Positions 12,303-17,771 of a stretch of 64,000 bases of DNA are shown here, piece by piece. The notes under the pieces were generated by a model. It was not told the DNA's origin. It saw only the letters and a list, made by a program, of their open reading frames with translations, and did not search any database. Position 1 is the stretch's first letter, and every line of letters starts with the position of its first letter. The DNA is from Geothermobacter ehrlichii. GTDB taxonomy: Bacteria; Desulfobacterota; Desulfuromonadia; Desulfuromonadales; Geothermobacteraceae. The position numbers and the translations under genes were made by a program. Location: contig NZ_VNIB01000005.1 of assembly GCF_008124615.1 (NCBI RefSeq), forward strand, positions 62,001 to 126,000, in the 5' to 3' direction.

Positions 12303-13114
12303 AGATCGTCTCGTTCAATGTCAACGGCATTCGCGCCCGGCTGCATCAGCTGGCGGCGCTGGTGGAGAGTCACGCCCCCGATATCATTGGTCTGCAGGAG
12401 ACCAAGGTGCAGGATGCCGACTTTCCGTTGGACGCCGTGCGCGAACTTGGCTACCGGGTGGCCTGGCACGGCCAGAAGACCCACTATGGTGTTGCCATCC
12501 TCTCCAGGCAGGAGCCGCTGGCGGTGCACAAGGGGCTGCCGGGCGAACCGGACGATGCCCAGCGGCGCTGCATCATCGCCGATTTTCCCCTCGCCGACGG
12601 CCGGAGACTGCGCGTGGTCAACGGCTATTTCCCCCAGGGCGAAAATCGGGAGCATCCGGTGAAGTTTCCGGCCAAGCGGTGGTTCTACGCCCGACTGCGC
12701 GACTATCTCGTGCGGGAATGCGACCCGCAGCAGCCGCTGGTGGTGCTGGGAGACATGAACGTCGCTCCCGACGATCTGGACGTCGGCATCGGCGAGCAGA
12801 ACGCCCGCCGATGGCTGCGTACCGGCAAGTGTTCCTTCCTGCCGGAGGAGCGGGAATGGCACCGGTCCCTGTGCGACTGGGGGCTGACCGACAGCTTCCG
12901 CCGGCTGCATCCCGACGTCGCCGACCGTTTCAGCTGGTTCGACTACCGCTCCCGCGGTTTCGAGGCCGATCCGAAGCGCGGCTTGCGCATCGATCAGTTG
13001 CTGGTGACCGCGCCCCTGGCGGAAAAACTGACGGCGGCGGGGATTGATTACGCAATCCGGGGCATGGAGAAGCCGTCGGATCATTGCCCCTGCTGGGCGG
13101 AATTCGCTTTGTGA
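12299..13114 (+). CDS. xthA: Exodeoxyribonuclease III
   Basis: Mg-dependent AP endonuclease and 3'-5' exonuclease of base excision repair, 271 residues. Conserved positions are N7 (FNVNGIR), E34 (GLQETKV), GDMN at 151-154, a LRIDQLL segment and the catalytic SDH at 260-262. The start overlaps the TerC stop (ATGA), and the stop overlaps the GTG start of the following gene (GTGA), so three genes are read as one unit. The start and length match the family. Confidence 0.95.
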
Positions 13115-13782
13115 AGAATCTGCAAGCCTTTCTTGACGCCCAGCTTGAGCTGATGCAGCAGGTCGATGCCTGGTTTGTCGCGACCGCGCGGGAGCTTCCC
13201 GCTGACGCCATCGCCTGTCGTGCCGGCTGCAGCGCCTGCTGCCGGGGGCTGTTTGATATCAGTCTGATTGAGGCGCTGATTTTGCGCCGGGCATGGGAGG
13301 GGTTGCCTGCCGATATCCGTCGTCGGGTGCGGGGCAAGGCCCTGATGCGGCTGGACGAATTGAAACAGGGCTGGCCGCACTGGCAGCCGCCGTATCTGCT
13401 CAACGGCATGCCGGACGAGGAATGGACCGAGATGCCGGAGGACGATTTGACGCCCTGTCTGCTGCTGGCCGAAGACGGGCGCTGCCTTGTTTATGAGGTC
13501 CGGCCGATGACCTGCCGACTGCACGGTTTGCCGGCCATCGACCTTGACGGTACCGATTTCGGTTCGGCGGTCTGCAGCCGCAACTGGCTGTCGGAAAATT
13601 TTGACCTGCGCTATCCCTATCGTGCCTTGTTTCGGCGCGAGAACGCACTGTTACGGCAGTTCGCCCTGCAACTGACCGGGCGCCCCTTCCGTGAACTCGA
13701 TACCTTTATACCCCTGGCGGTGTTGATCGATTTTGAGGCAATCGACTGGCGTGGCCCGTTGCTGGCCGACCCTCGTGGCTGA
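13111..13782 (+). CDS. YkgJ-type cysteine-cluster protein (UPF0153)
   Basis: This 223-residue cytosolic protein has the [11 protein letters not shown] cluster of the YkgJ/UPF0153 family, followed by the later conserved cysteines [17 protein letters not shown] and AVCSRNW. These probably bind zinc or an iron-sulfur cluster; the biochemical role of the family is unknown. The GTG at 13111 is chosen because it overlaps the xthA stop, with GGCGGA upstream. An in-frame TTG at 13084 is possible but would overlap xthA more. It ends 11 bases before the convergent ferritin-like gene. Confidence 0.85.
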
Positions 13783-13793
13783 AGAGCCTCATT

Positions 13794-14543
13794 TCAGTTG
13801 GAAGTGCCGCTTCCTTCGGGAGCTGGAACCTCCGGGTACAGCTCCTTCATGCAGGTCGGGCAGACGCCGTGAGTCAGCTCCTTGTGCAGGGATTCGCGAA
13901 TGAAACTGTCACTGCTGACCCATTTCCCTTGTTCGTCCCTTATCTTGCCGCATCCGGCGCAGGAGGGGATAATCGATCGATAGCCGTAGAGCTCGACCAT
14001 GCGTTTGGCCGTACGGCGGTTTTCCCTCCAGACATGAACAAGGAATTCCCCGGCGAGTTCCAGTGAAAGGTCGATGCCGCCAAACCGGGCGAAACCCTCT
14101 AGAAATTGGCGGATATGGTTCTGGTAATCCTCATCGGGTGATGGGATTCCGGCATTTTCTTCGGCCAGCTGGAACAGCACTTCAAAGGTTGGATGGAGCA
14201 GGTAGAATTCCATTTTGTAGGCAGTGCGGAAGGCGTCGCCTACGGACACTCTCCGGTTAGGAACTGCAACCAACTCTGCCGCCCGTTTGTCGATTTCGAG
14301 TAACTCGAAAAAGGTCTCTCGGGGGTCATCGAAAATCATCGGGATTTTTCCTTTGTCGATCGCCCGGTTAAGTTCAACCCAGAATGCATTGTGCTCCGCT
14401 TCTTCTTCGGCCATAAGTTGCCAGAAATCTTTCAGCTCATCATTGTCCGCCTGATTCGAGAGCTGATGATAAATGGCTTCGGCTTTGCGGTCGATGGACA
14501 GGGCCAGGTCGACAATGGCCTTGAGCTGTTCCTTTCTTTCCAT
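13794..14543 (-). CDS. Ferritin-like domain fused to a CxxC-KIRD-type zinc-knuckle tail
   Basis: Of 249 residues, the first 150 form long amphipathic helices with acidic and histidine positions of a ferritin/rubrerythrin-like carboxylate-bridged diiron fold (EEEAEHNAFW, E48xxH51; EFYLLHPTFEVLFQLAEE). Residues 195-240 carry CAGCGKIRDEQGKW and HGVCPTCMKELYPE, a cysteine module known to me as a tail after PAS or receiver domains in delta-proteobacteria. Its role is unknown and it probably binds metal. The ATG at 14543 has GGAGGA six bases upstream; the frame extends to a GTG at 14567, which is less likely. Role inferred: iron, oxygen or peroxide sensing or storage. Confidence 0.75.
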   Translation of the reverse strand: MERKEQLKAIVDLALSIDRKAEAIYHQLSNQADNDELKDFWQLMAEEEAEHNAFWVELNRAIDKGKIPMIFDDPRETFFELLEIDKRAAELVAVPNRRVSVGDAFRTAYKMEFYLLHPTFEVLFQLAEENAGIPSPDEDYQNHIRQFLEGFARFGGIDLSLELAGEFLVHVWRENRRTAKRMVELYGYRSIIPSCAGCGKIRDEQGKWVSSDSFIRESLHKELTHGVCPTCMKELYPEVPAPEGSGTSN

Positions 14544-14613
14544 TCTGTTCCTCCACCATATGGGCACGACCAGTTGGACCTGGAAAAAAGTATAGCAGGG
14601 CGCGGGCAGAACA

Positions 14614-15195
14614 CTATCGCCGGTCAGTGCCGCTCGTGGTTAAGTCTTCCTTCAGGAAAAGATCAAGGTCGTTCTTCAACTCCCTGTGTGCGCGGGTCAG
14701 TTCCGCCGCTCCTTCATGGAGCAGATTGGGACGGGGCAATCTTTGTGACAGACGTTTGAGGATGATCGAAACTGTCTCTACATCCCGGTAGGAAACCAGC
14801 CAGTTGTGCTCCGCCATGCGCCTGGCGACCGGGCGGAAGGATTCAGGCAACAGCTCCCTGTAGCGCTCAAATAACAGGTAGTTGTCAGCAGCGAATTGCT
14901 CCAGTGGCTGATGGTGGTAGTCATCCCAGTTTGCAGCCAGCAGGTGGTCGTAGAAAATGTCGACCAGTATCGGCTTGAGGATGCCGAACCGGTCATCGAT
15001 GCGTGCCTTGCTGGCCCGCACTGCCGGGCTGGTGACACTGTGACGATCAACGGCGCGATGCTGACGCAAACCGCGCAGCACACCCGCCGGCCAGTCAGCG
15101 GCAACCAGCCGGCCCTTGACCCAGTCGCCGAGCAGGTTGCCGAGCCGGACCTCGGGATCGGGGTCGGAGAGATAGAGGTGGACAAGGTAGTTCAT
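14614..15195 (-). CDS. acpH: Acyl carrier protein phosphodiesterase
   Basis: The 193-residue protein matches the AcpH/DUF479 family: MNYLVHLYLSDPDPEVRLGNLLGDWVKG, then RQHRAVDRHSVTSP with the histidine/aspartate metal site of this HD-like fold, and LVDIFYDHLLAANWDDY. It removes the 4'-phosphopantetheine group from holo-acyl carrier protein, feeding back on fatty-acid synthesis. There is no clear ribosome site before the ATG at 15195. The upstream 100 bases contain a short GAGACGCGAGGTGTGAGATG-type low-complexity stretch. Confidence 0.88.
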   Translation of the reverse strand: MNYLVHLYLSDPDPEVRLGNLLGDWVKGRLVAADWPAGVLRGLRQHRAVDRHSVTSPAVRASKARIDDRFGILKPILVDIFYDHLLAANWDDYHHQPLEQFAADNYLLFERYRELLPESFRPVARRMAEHNWLVSYRDVETVSIILKRLSQRLPRPNLLHEGAAELTRAHRELKNDLDLFLKEDLTTSGTDRR

Positions 15196-15294
15196 CGCGT
15201 TGGACGCGAGACGCGAGGTGTGAGATGCAATCCTGAAAATCCGGTTGCCAACCAGGGAACTGGTTCGAAACTCATGTCTTTCGCCTTCCCGGCT

Positions 15295-16137
15295 TTAATG
15301 TTTCGCCTCCGATTCCGCTCGCTGCGCCATACGGAAGGCCGTTTCGCCGATGGTTGCGTCTCCGAGAACCCCGTCGGCCAGGGTAATGTGGGGGATCTGT
15401 CGCCAATCCTTGCCGAGCAGCAGGGCGCCGGCGGCATCGACCGCAACCGGATCGAAGCCGGCGACGATCCGGTTCGGCGGCGGGTCGCAGACCGGGCCGC
15501 CCAGGTGGTGTTCGGCCAGGCCGACACTTGCGTCGATCAGGGCCAGGTCCGGTTTGCGGTAGAGGTTGAGTTCGAAGATGGCGCGGTGCATCTGCCGGTG
15601 AAAGGCCGATTTCTTCCAGTGCCCGCCCTGTTGGTAGAAGCTTGGCGGCGCGCAGCCGATCATGTTTTTCATGCTCAGGGTGACATCGGCCAGGCTGTGT
15701 GCCTTGAGCACGGCGAAGGAGATGACAAAGGCGTCGAGCAGAATTTCCGGCAGATAGAATTGGGGAAAGACCCGGCAGTCGTCCCGGTTCAGTTCGGTGA
15801 CCGGCGCCTGGTTCAGGTCGATCAGTTTCAGGTTGTAGCGATCGGCCAGGTCCATGTAGCCGAGGTGGTCGAAGACCTTGATGGTCGAGTGCAGCCGGTC
15901 GCCGGTCCCCTCGGCGATGATGATGCGGGCGTCGGTCCGCTTGCGCAGCCAGCGCACCAGCACCATGGCCGCTTCGACCGGCAGGGTGACCGGCGGCGGG
16001 TCGTCGGTCACCAGGTTCGGTTTGATGATGACGGTTTTTTGGCCGGCGAGGCGTTCTTCGGCGCCGATGGCGGCCAGCGCCAGCGGCAGGGACTCGCCGA
16101 AGCTTTCGAAGGGCTGCAGGTGGCAACTCCGGCTCAT
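15295..16137 (-). CDS. DUF362 domain protein
   Basis: The 280-residue protein matches DUF362: VIIKPNLVTDDPPPVTLPVEA, then IIIAEGTGDRLHST, then SLADVTLSMKNMIGCAPP and NRIVAGFDPVAVDAAGALLLG. The ferredoxin-type cysteines found in longer DUF362 proteins are absent, so it is the short form. Its biochemical role is unknown. The start at 16137 overlaps the stop of the lipoprotein gene (ATGA), so they are cotranscribed, with the M23 peptidase upstream. Confidence 0.82.
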   Translation of the reverse strand: MSRSCHLQPFESFGESLPLALAAIGAEERLAGQKTVIIKPNLVTDDPPPVTLPVEAAMVLVRWLRKRTDARIIIAEGTGDRLHSTIKVFDHLGYMDLADRYNLKLIDLNQAPVTELNRDDCRVFPQFYLPEILLDAFVISFAVLKAHSLADVTLSMKNMIGCAPPSFYQQGGHWKKSAFHRQMHRAIFELNLYRKPDLALIDASVGLAEHHLGGPVCDPPPNRIVAGFDPVAVDAAGALLLGKDWRQIPHITLADGVLGDATIGETAFRMAQRAESEAKH

Positions 16138-16439
16138 GGCGGGCCTATTTCCTCGATGACGATGCGCCGGCCCCACATGCGGTAGCCGACGGTGGGCGGC
16201 GCCGGCCGGGCGACCACCCGCACCTTCTGGCCGTCCCGGCGCAGGGCGGCGGGGATGCGGTCCGGCAGGTAGTGGTTGCCCTGCGCGTCCTCGAGGCCGA
16301 AGAAGCCGCCTTCGAGCGGAACGAAGACGACCCTGCCGGTGAAGCTGATCCGGTCATCTGCCGGAGCGGGCGGCCGGTCGGCGAAGCAGCCGGTGAACGG
16401 CAGCGTCAGCAGCAGAAAGAGCAGAAACCATGGGCGCAT
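16134..16439 (-). CDS. Small lipoprotein of unknown function
   Basis: This 101-residue protein has a signal sequence of hydrophobic leucines ending in a lipobox LPFTGC (Cys18), so it is probably lipid-anchored in the envelope. The mature part, ISFTGRVVFVPLEGGFFGLEDAQGNHYLPD, looks like a small beta fold, possibly OB-like. No family is recognised. It lies three bases after the M23 peptidase gene and overlaps the DUF362 start, so one transcript is likely. Confidence 0.75.
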   Translation of the reverse strand: MRPWFLLFLLLTLPFTGCFADRPPAPADDRISFTGRVVFVPLEGGFFGLEDAQGNHYLPDRIPAALRRDGQKVRVVARPAPPTVGYRMWGRRIVIEEIGPP

Positions 16440-16442
16440 TGT

Positions 16443-17771
16443 TCACCTCCCGTCATGCCGGCCGTCGCCGGCCTTCTCGAGTCGGGCCTGGATGATCCGC
16501 TCCTTCGACGGCTGTTCGAGGCGGGCGATCCAGGGCTGGATCATGTCGAAGAAGAGCTGGCGGTTGGCCTTGGAAACCGGCGCCATGGGCGGCGACTCGA
16601 TGCGGGTCGGATTGACCGGCTTGCCGTTGCGGTACATGCGGAAGCAGAGGTGCGGCCCGGTCGCCAGACCGGTCGAGCCGACGTAACCGATGACCTGCCC
16701 CTGCCGGACGCGGCGGCCCTTGCGGATGCCGCGGGCGAACCTGCTCATGTGCAGGTAGAGGGTCTTGTAGGTGCTGTTGTGGCGGATCTCGACAAAGTTG
16801 CCGTTGCCCTTGGTGTAGCCCTTGCGGCTGATGACGCCGTCGCCCACCGCCTTGATCGGCGTGCCGGTCGGCGCGGCGTAGTCGATGGCCGGGTGGGCGC
16901 GCCAGGTCTTGCGGATCGGGTGAAACCGGCGCATGGTGAAGCCGCTGGAGATGCGGCTGAACTTGAGCGGGGCCTTGAGAAAGGCCTTGCGCACGCTGTG
17001 TCCCCGTTCGTCGTAATAGGACGGTGGTTTGTCACCGTCCTGAAAGAGGAAGGCGCGGAAGATTCTGCCCCGGTTGGAGAATTCGGCCGCCAGGATGCGG
17101 CCGTAGCCGGCCGGCTTGCCGTCGCGGAAGCGTTTTTCGACCAGGGCCTGGAAGCTGTCGCCGGTGCGGATGTCGAGGATGAAGTCGATATCCCAGGCGA
17201 AGATGTCGGCCAGCGCCAGGGCCAGCTCCGCCTCTTCGCCGATGTCGGCCACCGCTTCGAACAGGCTGCTGCGGATGGTGCCCTGCACGTGGTCGACCCG
17301 GACATCGTAGGGGATGGGCTTGCGCTCGATGACGAAGTCGTCCTCCTGGCGGGAAACGATCAGCTCTTCGTCGCGGTCGATGTCGTATTCGAAGCGTTCG
17401 AACCGACCGTCGGTCAGGCAGATGCGGTAGGGCTGGCCGGCGCAGATGCGGGAGAGGGGGAAGACCTTTTCGCTCTTCTTGCTGAGCAGGAGGATGTCCC
17501 GCGGGCTGAGATAGTCGCCGAGCAGGGAGGTCAGGGTTTCGCCGGGATCGATGGTGTCTGCGATGACCGTCCGCTCGACTTCCGGCTGTGGCGGGGGCTT
17601 GATTTCGGCCACCGGTTCGGTGCGGGCTTCGGTCGGGTTGACCAGCGGCTGCCGGGTCAGCACGAAGCCGAGGACCAGCAGCAGAAGGCATCCCAGCACC
17701 AGGGCGGGGAGTTTCCACCGGCCCTTGCGTTGCGCCATGCTCTGGCGGGGGGGCTGAAAATCGAAATCCAT
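16443..17771 (-). CDS. Membrane-anchored M23 (LytM) metallopeptidase, MepM/YebA-like
   Basis: This 442-residue periplasmic peptidase has a single N-terminal membrane segment (LPALVLGCLLLLVLGFVL). It probably cleaves peptidoglycan crosslinks. A middle region (ETLTSLLGDYLSPRDILLL) resembles the OapA/LysM-like domain of MepM. The C-terminal M23 domain keeps all zinc and catalytic positions: HPAIDYAAPTGTPI, LYLHMSRFA and TGPHLCFRMYRNGKPVNP. The start at 17771 follows AGGTGG. Longer in-frame starts (to 17936) put nonsense-like sequence before the membrane segment and are rejected. Its products sit in an operon with a lipoprotein and a DUF362 protein. Confidence 0.9.
   Translation of the reverse strand: MDFDFQPPRQSMAQRKGRWKLPALVLGCLLLLVLGFVLTRQPLVNPTEARTEPVAEIKPPPQPEVERTVIADTIDPGETLTSLLGDYLSPRDILLLSKKSEKVFPLSRICAGQPYRICLTDGRFERFEYDIDRDEELIVSRQEDDFVIERKPIPYDVRVDHVQGTIRSSLFEAVADIGEEAELALALADIFAWDIDFILDIRTGDSFQALVEKRFRDGKPAGYGRILAAEFSNRGRIFRAFLFQDGDKPPSYYDERGHSVRKAFLKAPLKFSRISSGFTMRRFHPIRKTWRAHPAIDYAAPTGTPIKAVGDGVISRKGYTKGNGNFVEIRHNSTYKTLYLHMSRFARGIRKGRRVRQGQVIGYVGSTGLATGPHLCFRMYRNGKPVNPTRIESPPMAPVSKANRQLFFDMIQPWIARLEQPSKERIIQARLEKAGDGRHDGR

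Follow-up and report, generated by a model that had tools for sequence, protein, structure and literature searches.

The locus described here raises the question of what is served by a protein in which a ferritin-like domain is followed by a small C-terminal module with four cysteines. It lies in a stretch of 64,000 nucleotides from Geothermobacter ehrlichii, referred to as the window, and the gene and its translation start are as follows:

13794 to 14543, minus strand: gene for the 249-residue protein with a ferritin-like domain and a four-cysteine module (open reading frame translation)
14550 to 14554, minus strand: GGAGG, a likely ribosome-binding site separated from the ATG by 6 bases (direct sequence reading)

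The ATG at 14543 is thus preceded by GGAGG, and a GTG in the same reading frame offers an alternative start that would add eight residues. One full-length match was returned when the organism's own genome was searched with the 249-residue protein. The neighbours of the gene are ordinary: upstream on the same strand is a gene for an ACP phosphodiesterase, its end 70 bases away, a DUF362 protein is encoded nearby, and the gene for a CxxCxxCC protein converges from the other side (13084 to 13782, plus strand; a putative zinc- or iron-chelating protein). An Rfam scan of positions 13000 to 16500 gave no match, terminator-like sites numbered 0 against 2.1 expected, and promoter-like sites numbered 3 against 0.6 expected, the sole one on the strand of the gene falling within it. 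The joining of the two parts is no frame or assembly accident, since it recurs in four other genomes from two other families (loci L047 to L050). Two scanned neighbours of L047 encode a DAHP synthase and a radical SAM protein (in L076).

The best explanation, held with moderate confidence, is that of a soluble one-component signalling protein with a predicted ferritin-like metal sensor and the four-cysteine module as its proposed output. Its parts are arranged as follows:

13986 to 14543, minus strand: ferritin-like input domain, residues 1-186 (Pfam, phmmer, profile and predicted fold)
13977 to 14069, minus strand: long helix 159-189, which links the ferritin-like domain to the module; the same stretch enters the GGDEF domain in relatives (model and alignment)
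13830 to 13982, minus strand: four-cysteine module, residues 188-238, C195xxC198...H225-G-x-C228-P-x-C231 (module alignment and model)

By prediction and homology together, the N-terminal domain has a ferritin-like fold. An AlphaFold2 model built from 62 aligned sequences (pLDDT 91.9, pTM 0.84) places helices at 3-31, 35-63, 74-92, 101-114/118-131, 137-154 and the start of 159-189, a four-helix bundle with crossover that also has rubrerythrin-like homology, as expected of the ferritin-like superfamily. Pfam Rubrerythrin matched the window protein at residues 11-80 only (7.8e-6, above the curated cut-off) and was found in six of 13 ferritin-like members scanned. Much closer similarity was seen to the N-terminus of PDB entry 3EZU, both for the single sequence (174 residues, phmmer 6e-23) and for a profile of the 13 members (172 residues, 1.9e-57), and this homology covers the whole 3EZU-type signalling input domain, together with the segment leading into the domain behind it. 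The same entry was the best structural match of the model (VIA Z 13.9, rmsd 3.2 over 157 residues) and its only significant Foldseek match. Next came TM1526 (PDB 1VJX), a diiron-carboxylate protein of the ferritin-like kind, which aligned with model residues 3-155 at a VIA Z of 12.1 (rmsd 2.9 over 140); as values under about 13 can reflect a mere common helical arrangement, the link to diiron proteins rests mainly on profile alignment. An encapsulin cargo ferritin (EncB_fam) was considered and rejected (E 0.0042, 17.1 bits against a cut-off of 90). No match was obtained in plasmids at 1e-5, and the four stretches retrieved from viral contigs with one peptide pattern included no relative.

For assignment of the metal-ligand columns, 27 of 46 short relatives, those with at least two ExxH motifs, were kept, and their rubrerythrin-like profile was aligned to the 13-member profile (hhalign probability 98.5%, E 2e-15). 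The positions located in this way, with their conservation among 18 full-length members including that of the window, are the following:

14490 to 14492, minus strand: D18, helix-A ligand position in the helix-A Glu column (D or E in 15/18)
14391 to 14402, minus strand: E48xxH51, the helix-B ExxH (E48 in 13/18, H51 in 18/18)
14208 to 14210, minus strand: E112, helix-C ligand position in the helix-C Glu column (E in 16/18, Q in 2/18)
14115 to 14126, minus strand: Y140xxH143, at the helix-D ExxH of ferritin-like diiron proteins (Y140 in 18/18, H143 in 13/18)

Relative to rubrerythrins, five of the six diiron ligand positions are kept (D18, E48, H51, E112 and H143), and the full series E / ExxH / E / ExxH on helices A to D is broken by a tyrosine, Y140, which replaces the helix-D Glu in every one of the 18 members. 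The initial annotation had described an N-terminal part with ferritin-like ExxH helices; its ferritin-like character stands, while the plural does not, as the only ExxH is that of helix B and helix D carries YxxH. Nor does the alignment bear out the concern, raised at the same time, that a diiron ligand set might be missing. Taken together, the sequence comparisons suggest that the bundle most likely holds a putative two-metal, probably diiron, site formed by D18, E48, H51, E112 and H143.

With D or E accepted at position 18, the set is complete in 13 of the 18 members, the window protein among them, and two clades depart from it, each having lost three of the six ligands together: L017 and L019 have T48, Q112 and Y143, as does 3EZU, and L051, L052 and L074 have Y18, M48 and N143. 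Thirteen columns are fixed (D taken as equal to E) across the 13 ligand-complete rows, a grouping that was defined after the columns had been seen, and six of them are the ligand positions. The departing clades show radical exchanges at the ligand columns (E to T/M, E to Q, D to Y, H to Y/N), and at the other fixed columns that changed they have Y/F for W, L/V/I for F and I/V for L. At position 166 every one of the 18 members has an acidic residue, E or D. As Y140 is invariant also in the clades that have lost other ligands, it may be structural and no ligand.

The solved relative, 3EZU, is Geobacter sulfurreducens NP_951600.1, a ferritin-like domain followed by GGDEF. "Ligands in PSI structures" (PMC2954221) counts it with the structures whose ligand is unidentified; in the accessible portion of that article its code appears once more, in the legend of a figure on unknown ligands, and the metal lists do not contain it. 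It could therefore be argued that the input domain binds a small molecule rather than metals, the conserved acidic and histidine residues forming a pocket; that H51 and Y140 stay unchanged throughout the 18 members, regardless of the other ligands, would also agree with this. However, 3EZU belongs to the T48, Q112 and Y143 branch, lacking E48, E112 and H143, and the complete set found in 13/18 members coincides with the diiron positions of ferritins, so that a small-molecule pocket is considered unlikely. The absence of a listed metal from 3EZU fits its ligand-poor branch, and metal in the complete members stays a prediction.

What follows the ferritin-like domain differs between relatives. 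Of the 18 full-length members, 13 end in a GGDEF-type domain and five in the four-cysteine module, the latter spanning three families. One GGDEF relative, L015, shares 42% identity with the window protein in the ferritin-like domain. Within the class to which the window's organism belongs, some match was present in 38 of 277 genomes and a full-length one in seven, its own included; the other six all end in GGDEF. Across the phylum, 66 of 395 genomes contained some match and ten places were full-length, that of the window included. Among the other nine, the four from two families mentioned above (L047 to L050) combine the domain with the module and five (L045, L046, L051, L052 and L074) with a GGDEF-type domain. 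Two further GGDEF members, L176 and L177, came from class searches around four of those genomes (12, 17, 63 and 3 genomes). The join lies at the same point in both kinds, after a conserved W-x-E-N stretch, and the 69 residues that follow the ferritin-like domain in the window protein are taken by the module, leaving it without a GGDEF domain. On these alignments, the ferritin-like domain is an input domain common to GGDEF proteins and module proteins. In a maximum-likelihood tree of the members, three changes of output were needed and a single origin was recovered in 0/200 bootstrap trees, suggesting repeated domain swapping, although only 4/15 inner branches were well supported and one module clade was not rejected (p-AU 0.293).

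Three of the 13 GGDEF-type members sit in the departing clade L051, L052 and L074. The GGDEF motif is damaged in L051 (RYDFSSF) and L074 (RYSFSTF), a pattern search found none in L052, of which only the start of the GGDEF-type domain was viewed, and L017 and L019 retain RYDGDEF. In L051 and L074, both of family f26, ligands and GGDEF motif have been lost together, and genome G351 holds an intact copy (L045) along with a damaged one (L074). Separately, L043:1366-2271 (plus strand) showed a weak partial match to the first helices of the ferritin-like domain ahead of a receiver domain, another possible signalling combination.

The tail of the protein had been recognised initially as a C-terminal module of PAS or receiver signalling proteins, and a profile search with the module alone upheld this. 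A nine-sequence profile detected the module in 54 of the 118 genomes sampled from the phylum, with up to 16 copies in one. A peptide scan of genome contigs gave eight confirmed module loci among 43 stretches, in records named Acidobacteria, Deltaproteobacteria, Neomarinimicrobiota, Verrucomicrobia, Spirochaetes, Proteobacteria, Geobacter and 'bacterium'. The window protein matched the module profile, in which it is itself included, at E 2.2e-24. A collection of 104 module proteins was assembled, the window's included; it is a non-random sample drawn mostly from the upper score list, and some members are cut N-terminally by the fetched stretch. In it, C195, C198, R202, C228 and C231 are present in 104/104 and P193, W208 and H225 in 103/104, while the window module departs from consensus at G199 (K in 97/104) and K207 (Y in 79/104). 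The C-terminal pattern C-x2-C-x3-R ... H-G-x-C-P-x-C is present in the window protein, and a conserved AL..VKTL-type linker, helical in both models, lies ahead of the module. Pfam matches in these proteins comprised PAS (36), receiver (23), MASE3 (7), GAF_2 (5), Cache (3), Tll0287-like (3), phosphonate-binding (2) and GGDEF (1) domains among the 25 of 47 families listed; no histidine kinase, EAL or HD family was among those 25, and the rest match at most one member each.

The initial annotation also suspected that the function of the module had not been described, and the searches support this. Judged by sequence, no Pfam or NCBIfam model fits the module convincingly: with the module alone at E up to 1, Pfam gave only weak matches (DUF3039, for example, in 82/101 members with a best E of 0.0016; zinc-ribbon families with a best E of 0.0004), and no NCBIfam family was matched by more than 5/101 members. 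In the accessible part of the open-access literature, neither the ferritin-like GGDEF family nor the module was found described, and the module motif strings had no text match. A weak survey of 135 open reading frames at 20 module loci, spurious frames included, revealed no common partner gene; among the 25 of 150 families listed, receiver domains were matched at most 7 times, PAS 4 times and HATPase_c 3 times. In L184, L187, L191 and L197 the module gene was unmarked, overlapping frames apparently having been chosen. A second module copy of the same genome lies outside the window on the same contig, about 16 kb away (L002:1063-1638, plus strand); its protein of 192 residues has extra cysteines and an N-terminal part that is PAS-like by eye, with no Pfam match. 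Three module reading frames lie close together in L152 and two in L092, and one of the L152 modules is without the conserved W and the SHG part, all four cysteines being kept.

In the full model the module consists of a strand (191-195), the first CxxC, short bridges, a helix (211-218), a strand (222-226) and a helix (229-235) that begins inside the second CxxC. When it was modelled alone (pLDDT 73.5), the last helix again began there and helix 211-218 did not form. A treble-clef zinc finger consists of a knuckle, a beta hairpin and then a helix with the last two ligands; the predicted order of elements in the module resembles this, with no significant structural match. The nearest hits, neither of them significant, were PerR, a Zn(Cys)4 protein, with Foldseek (E 1.2) and NMD3 with VIA (Z 2.8), and no solved structure was found by sequence, the best E values of 0.33 and 0.06 being short and chance-like.

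Rubrerythrin has the same order of parts as the window protein, and rubredoxin also carries two CxxC motifs at similar spacing. Together with the Pfam Rubrerythrin match to the first half of the domain, this would be compatible with a rubrerythrin-like redox enzyme, in which a diiron domain and an Fe(Cys)4 electron-transfer domain act on peroxide. A standard rubredoxin-like domain, which the initial annotation had itself named as a possible objection, nevertheless received no sequence support: no rubredoxin family occurred among the four Pfam matches of the window protein (E up to 10) or the seven of the module (E up to 1), and the C-terminal rubredoxin domain of a rubrerythrin was thus not found at the sequence level. 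Nor does a rubredoxin appear in the Foldseek and VIA lists of the module, though such lists exclude nothing. Furthermore, the module accompanies PAS, receiver and Cache domains in many proteins, its second CxxC holds the start of a predicted helix, Tyr stands in for the helix-D Glu, and in 13/18 members the place of the module is taken by a GGDEF-type domain. An enzyme of this kind is therefore regarded as very unlikely.

The role of the module within a signalling protein was considered separately. It ends 0 to 48 residues from the C-terminus in 103/104 proteins, and the sole exception is L170/L188, in which the order is module, linker and then GGDEF (L188:3934-5112, plus strand). This order suggests an input or dimerisation role there, and it makes the label 'output' uncertain. 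The module could accordingly be a zinc-stabilised dimerisation or input element in a protein that forms part of a partner complex, a reading also compatible with the helical AL..VKTL-type linker and with the PerR chains, which have a Zn(Cys)4 site, as best, non-significant Foldseek hits (E 1.2). As this arrangement is seen in 1/104 only, with at most 48 residues after the module in the other 103, and as no histidine kinase, EAL or HD appears among the 25 of 47 Pfam families listed, it is judged quite unlikely.

Under the preferred explanation, a metal sensor with the module as output, the bundle would hold a two-metal, probably diiron, site at D18, E48, H51, E112 and H143, with Y140 where Glu is normal, and the site would change state through metal loading, its redox state or reaction with O2 or peroxide. 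A shift of the long helix 159-189 could then pass the change to the attached domain. In the GGDEF relatives this would set c-di-GMP synthesis, as the redox state does in Bhr-DGC, and in the window protein it would alter what the cysteine module binds. For the module itself, a compact treble-clef-like unit with a Zn(Cys)4 site is proposed; by binding a partner molecule it would act as the output, as it may also do at the end of PAS and receiver proteins. The initial annotation had proposed a one-component diiron sensor of iron, oxygen or peroxide in place of PAS, and it was probably right in kind: the ferritin-like domain does stand where other module proteins have a sensor domain, and the metal and the signal are predictions. 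The present analysis adds the GGDEF relatives, a crystal structure from the ligand-poor branch, the replacement of the helix-D Glu by Tyr and a view of how widespread the module is. That these proteins form a new class of bacterial metal sensor, with a Tyr-containing diiron ferritin-like domain wired to c-di-GMP synthesis or to a four-cysteine output domain, is put forward tentatively, as a possibility somewhat short of probable.

To our knowledge, diiron sensors in signalling are mainly hemerythrins. If the proposal is true, c-di-GMP and related signalling would gain an input for iron, oxygen or redox state through a ferritin-like counterpart that has a ligand set of its own. The module is of broader importance, being present in 54/118 sampled genomes and occupying the position at which other signalling proteins carry their output. 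As it ends many PAS, receiver and membrane-sensor proteins, these phyla would contain a whole layer of signal transduction whose output is yet to be assigned.

Among known systems, 3EZU is closest, with a homologous input domain (E 1.9e-57 over 172 residues; Z 13.9), but it differs in having GGDEF in place of the cysteine module and in its T48, Q112 and Y143. Rubrerythrin and TM1526 (1VJX) share the four-helix fold (Z 12.1) and, as judged against the rubrerythrin-like loci, five of the six diiron positions; the window protein differs from them in its Tyr for the helix-D Glu, its long linker helix and the absence of a recognisable rubredoxin domain. The hemerythrin sensors (Bhr-DGC of Vibrio cholerae, DcrH) likewise place a diiron domain ahead of a signalling domain. 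According to the accessible part of PMC9388753, the diferrous form of Bhr-DGC is more active than the diferric one by a factor of about ten, and five His, one Glu and one Asp make up the hemerythrin ligand set, unlike the ferritin-like set of the window protein. HalOD2, an output domain of haloarchaeal response regulators, is described in the accessible part of PMC5847659 as a predicted Zn finger with two C-terminal CxxC motifs, reported there only in a few halobacteria. Compared by description, it resembles the module in its two conserved CxxC motifs at the C-terminus and differs in having 20 to 25 residues between them, as against 29 in the module.
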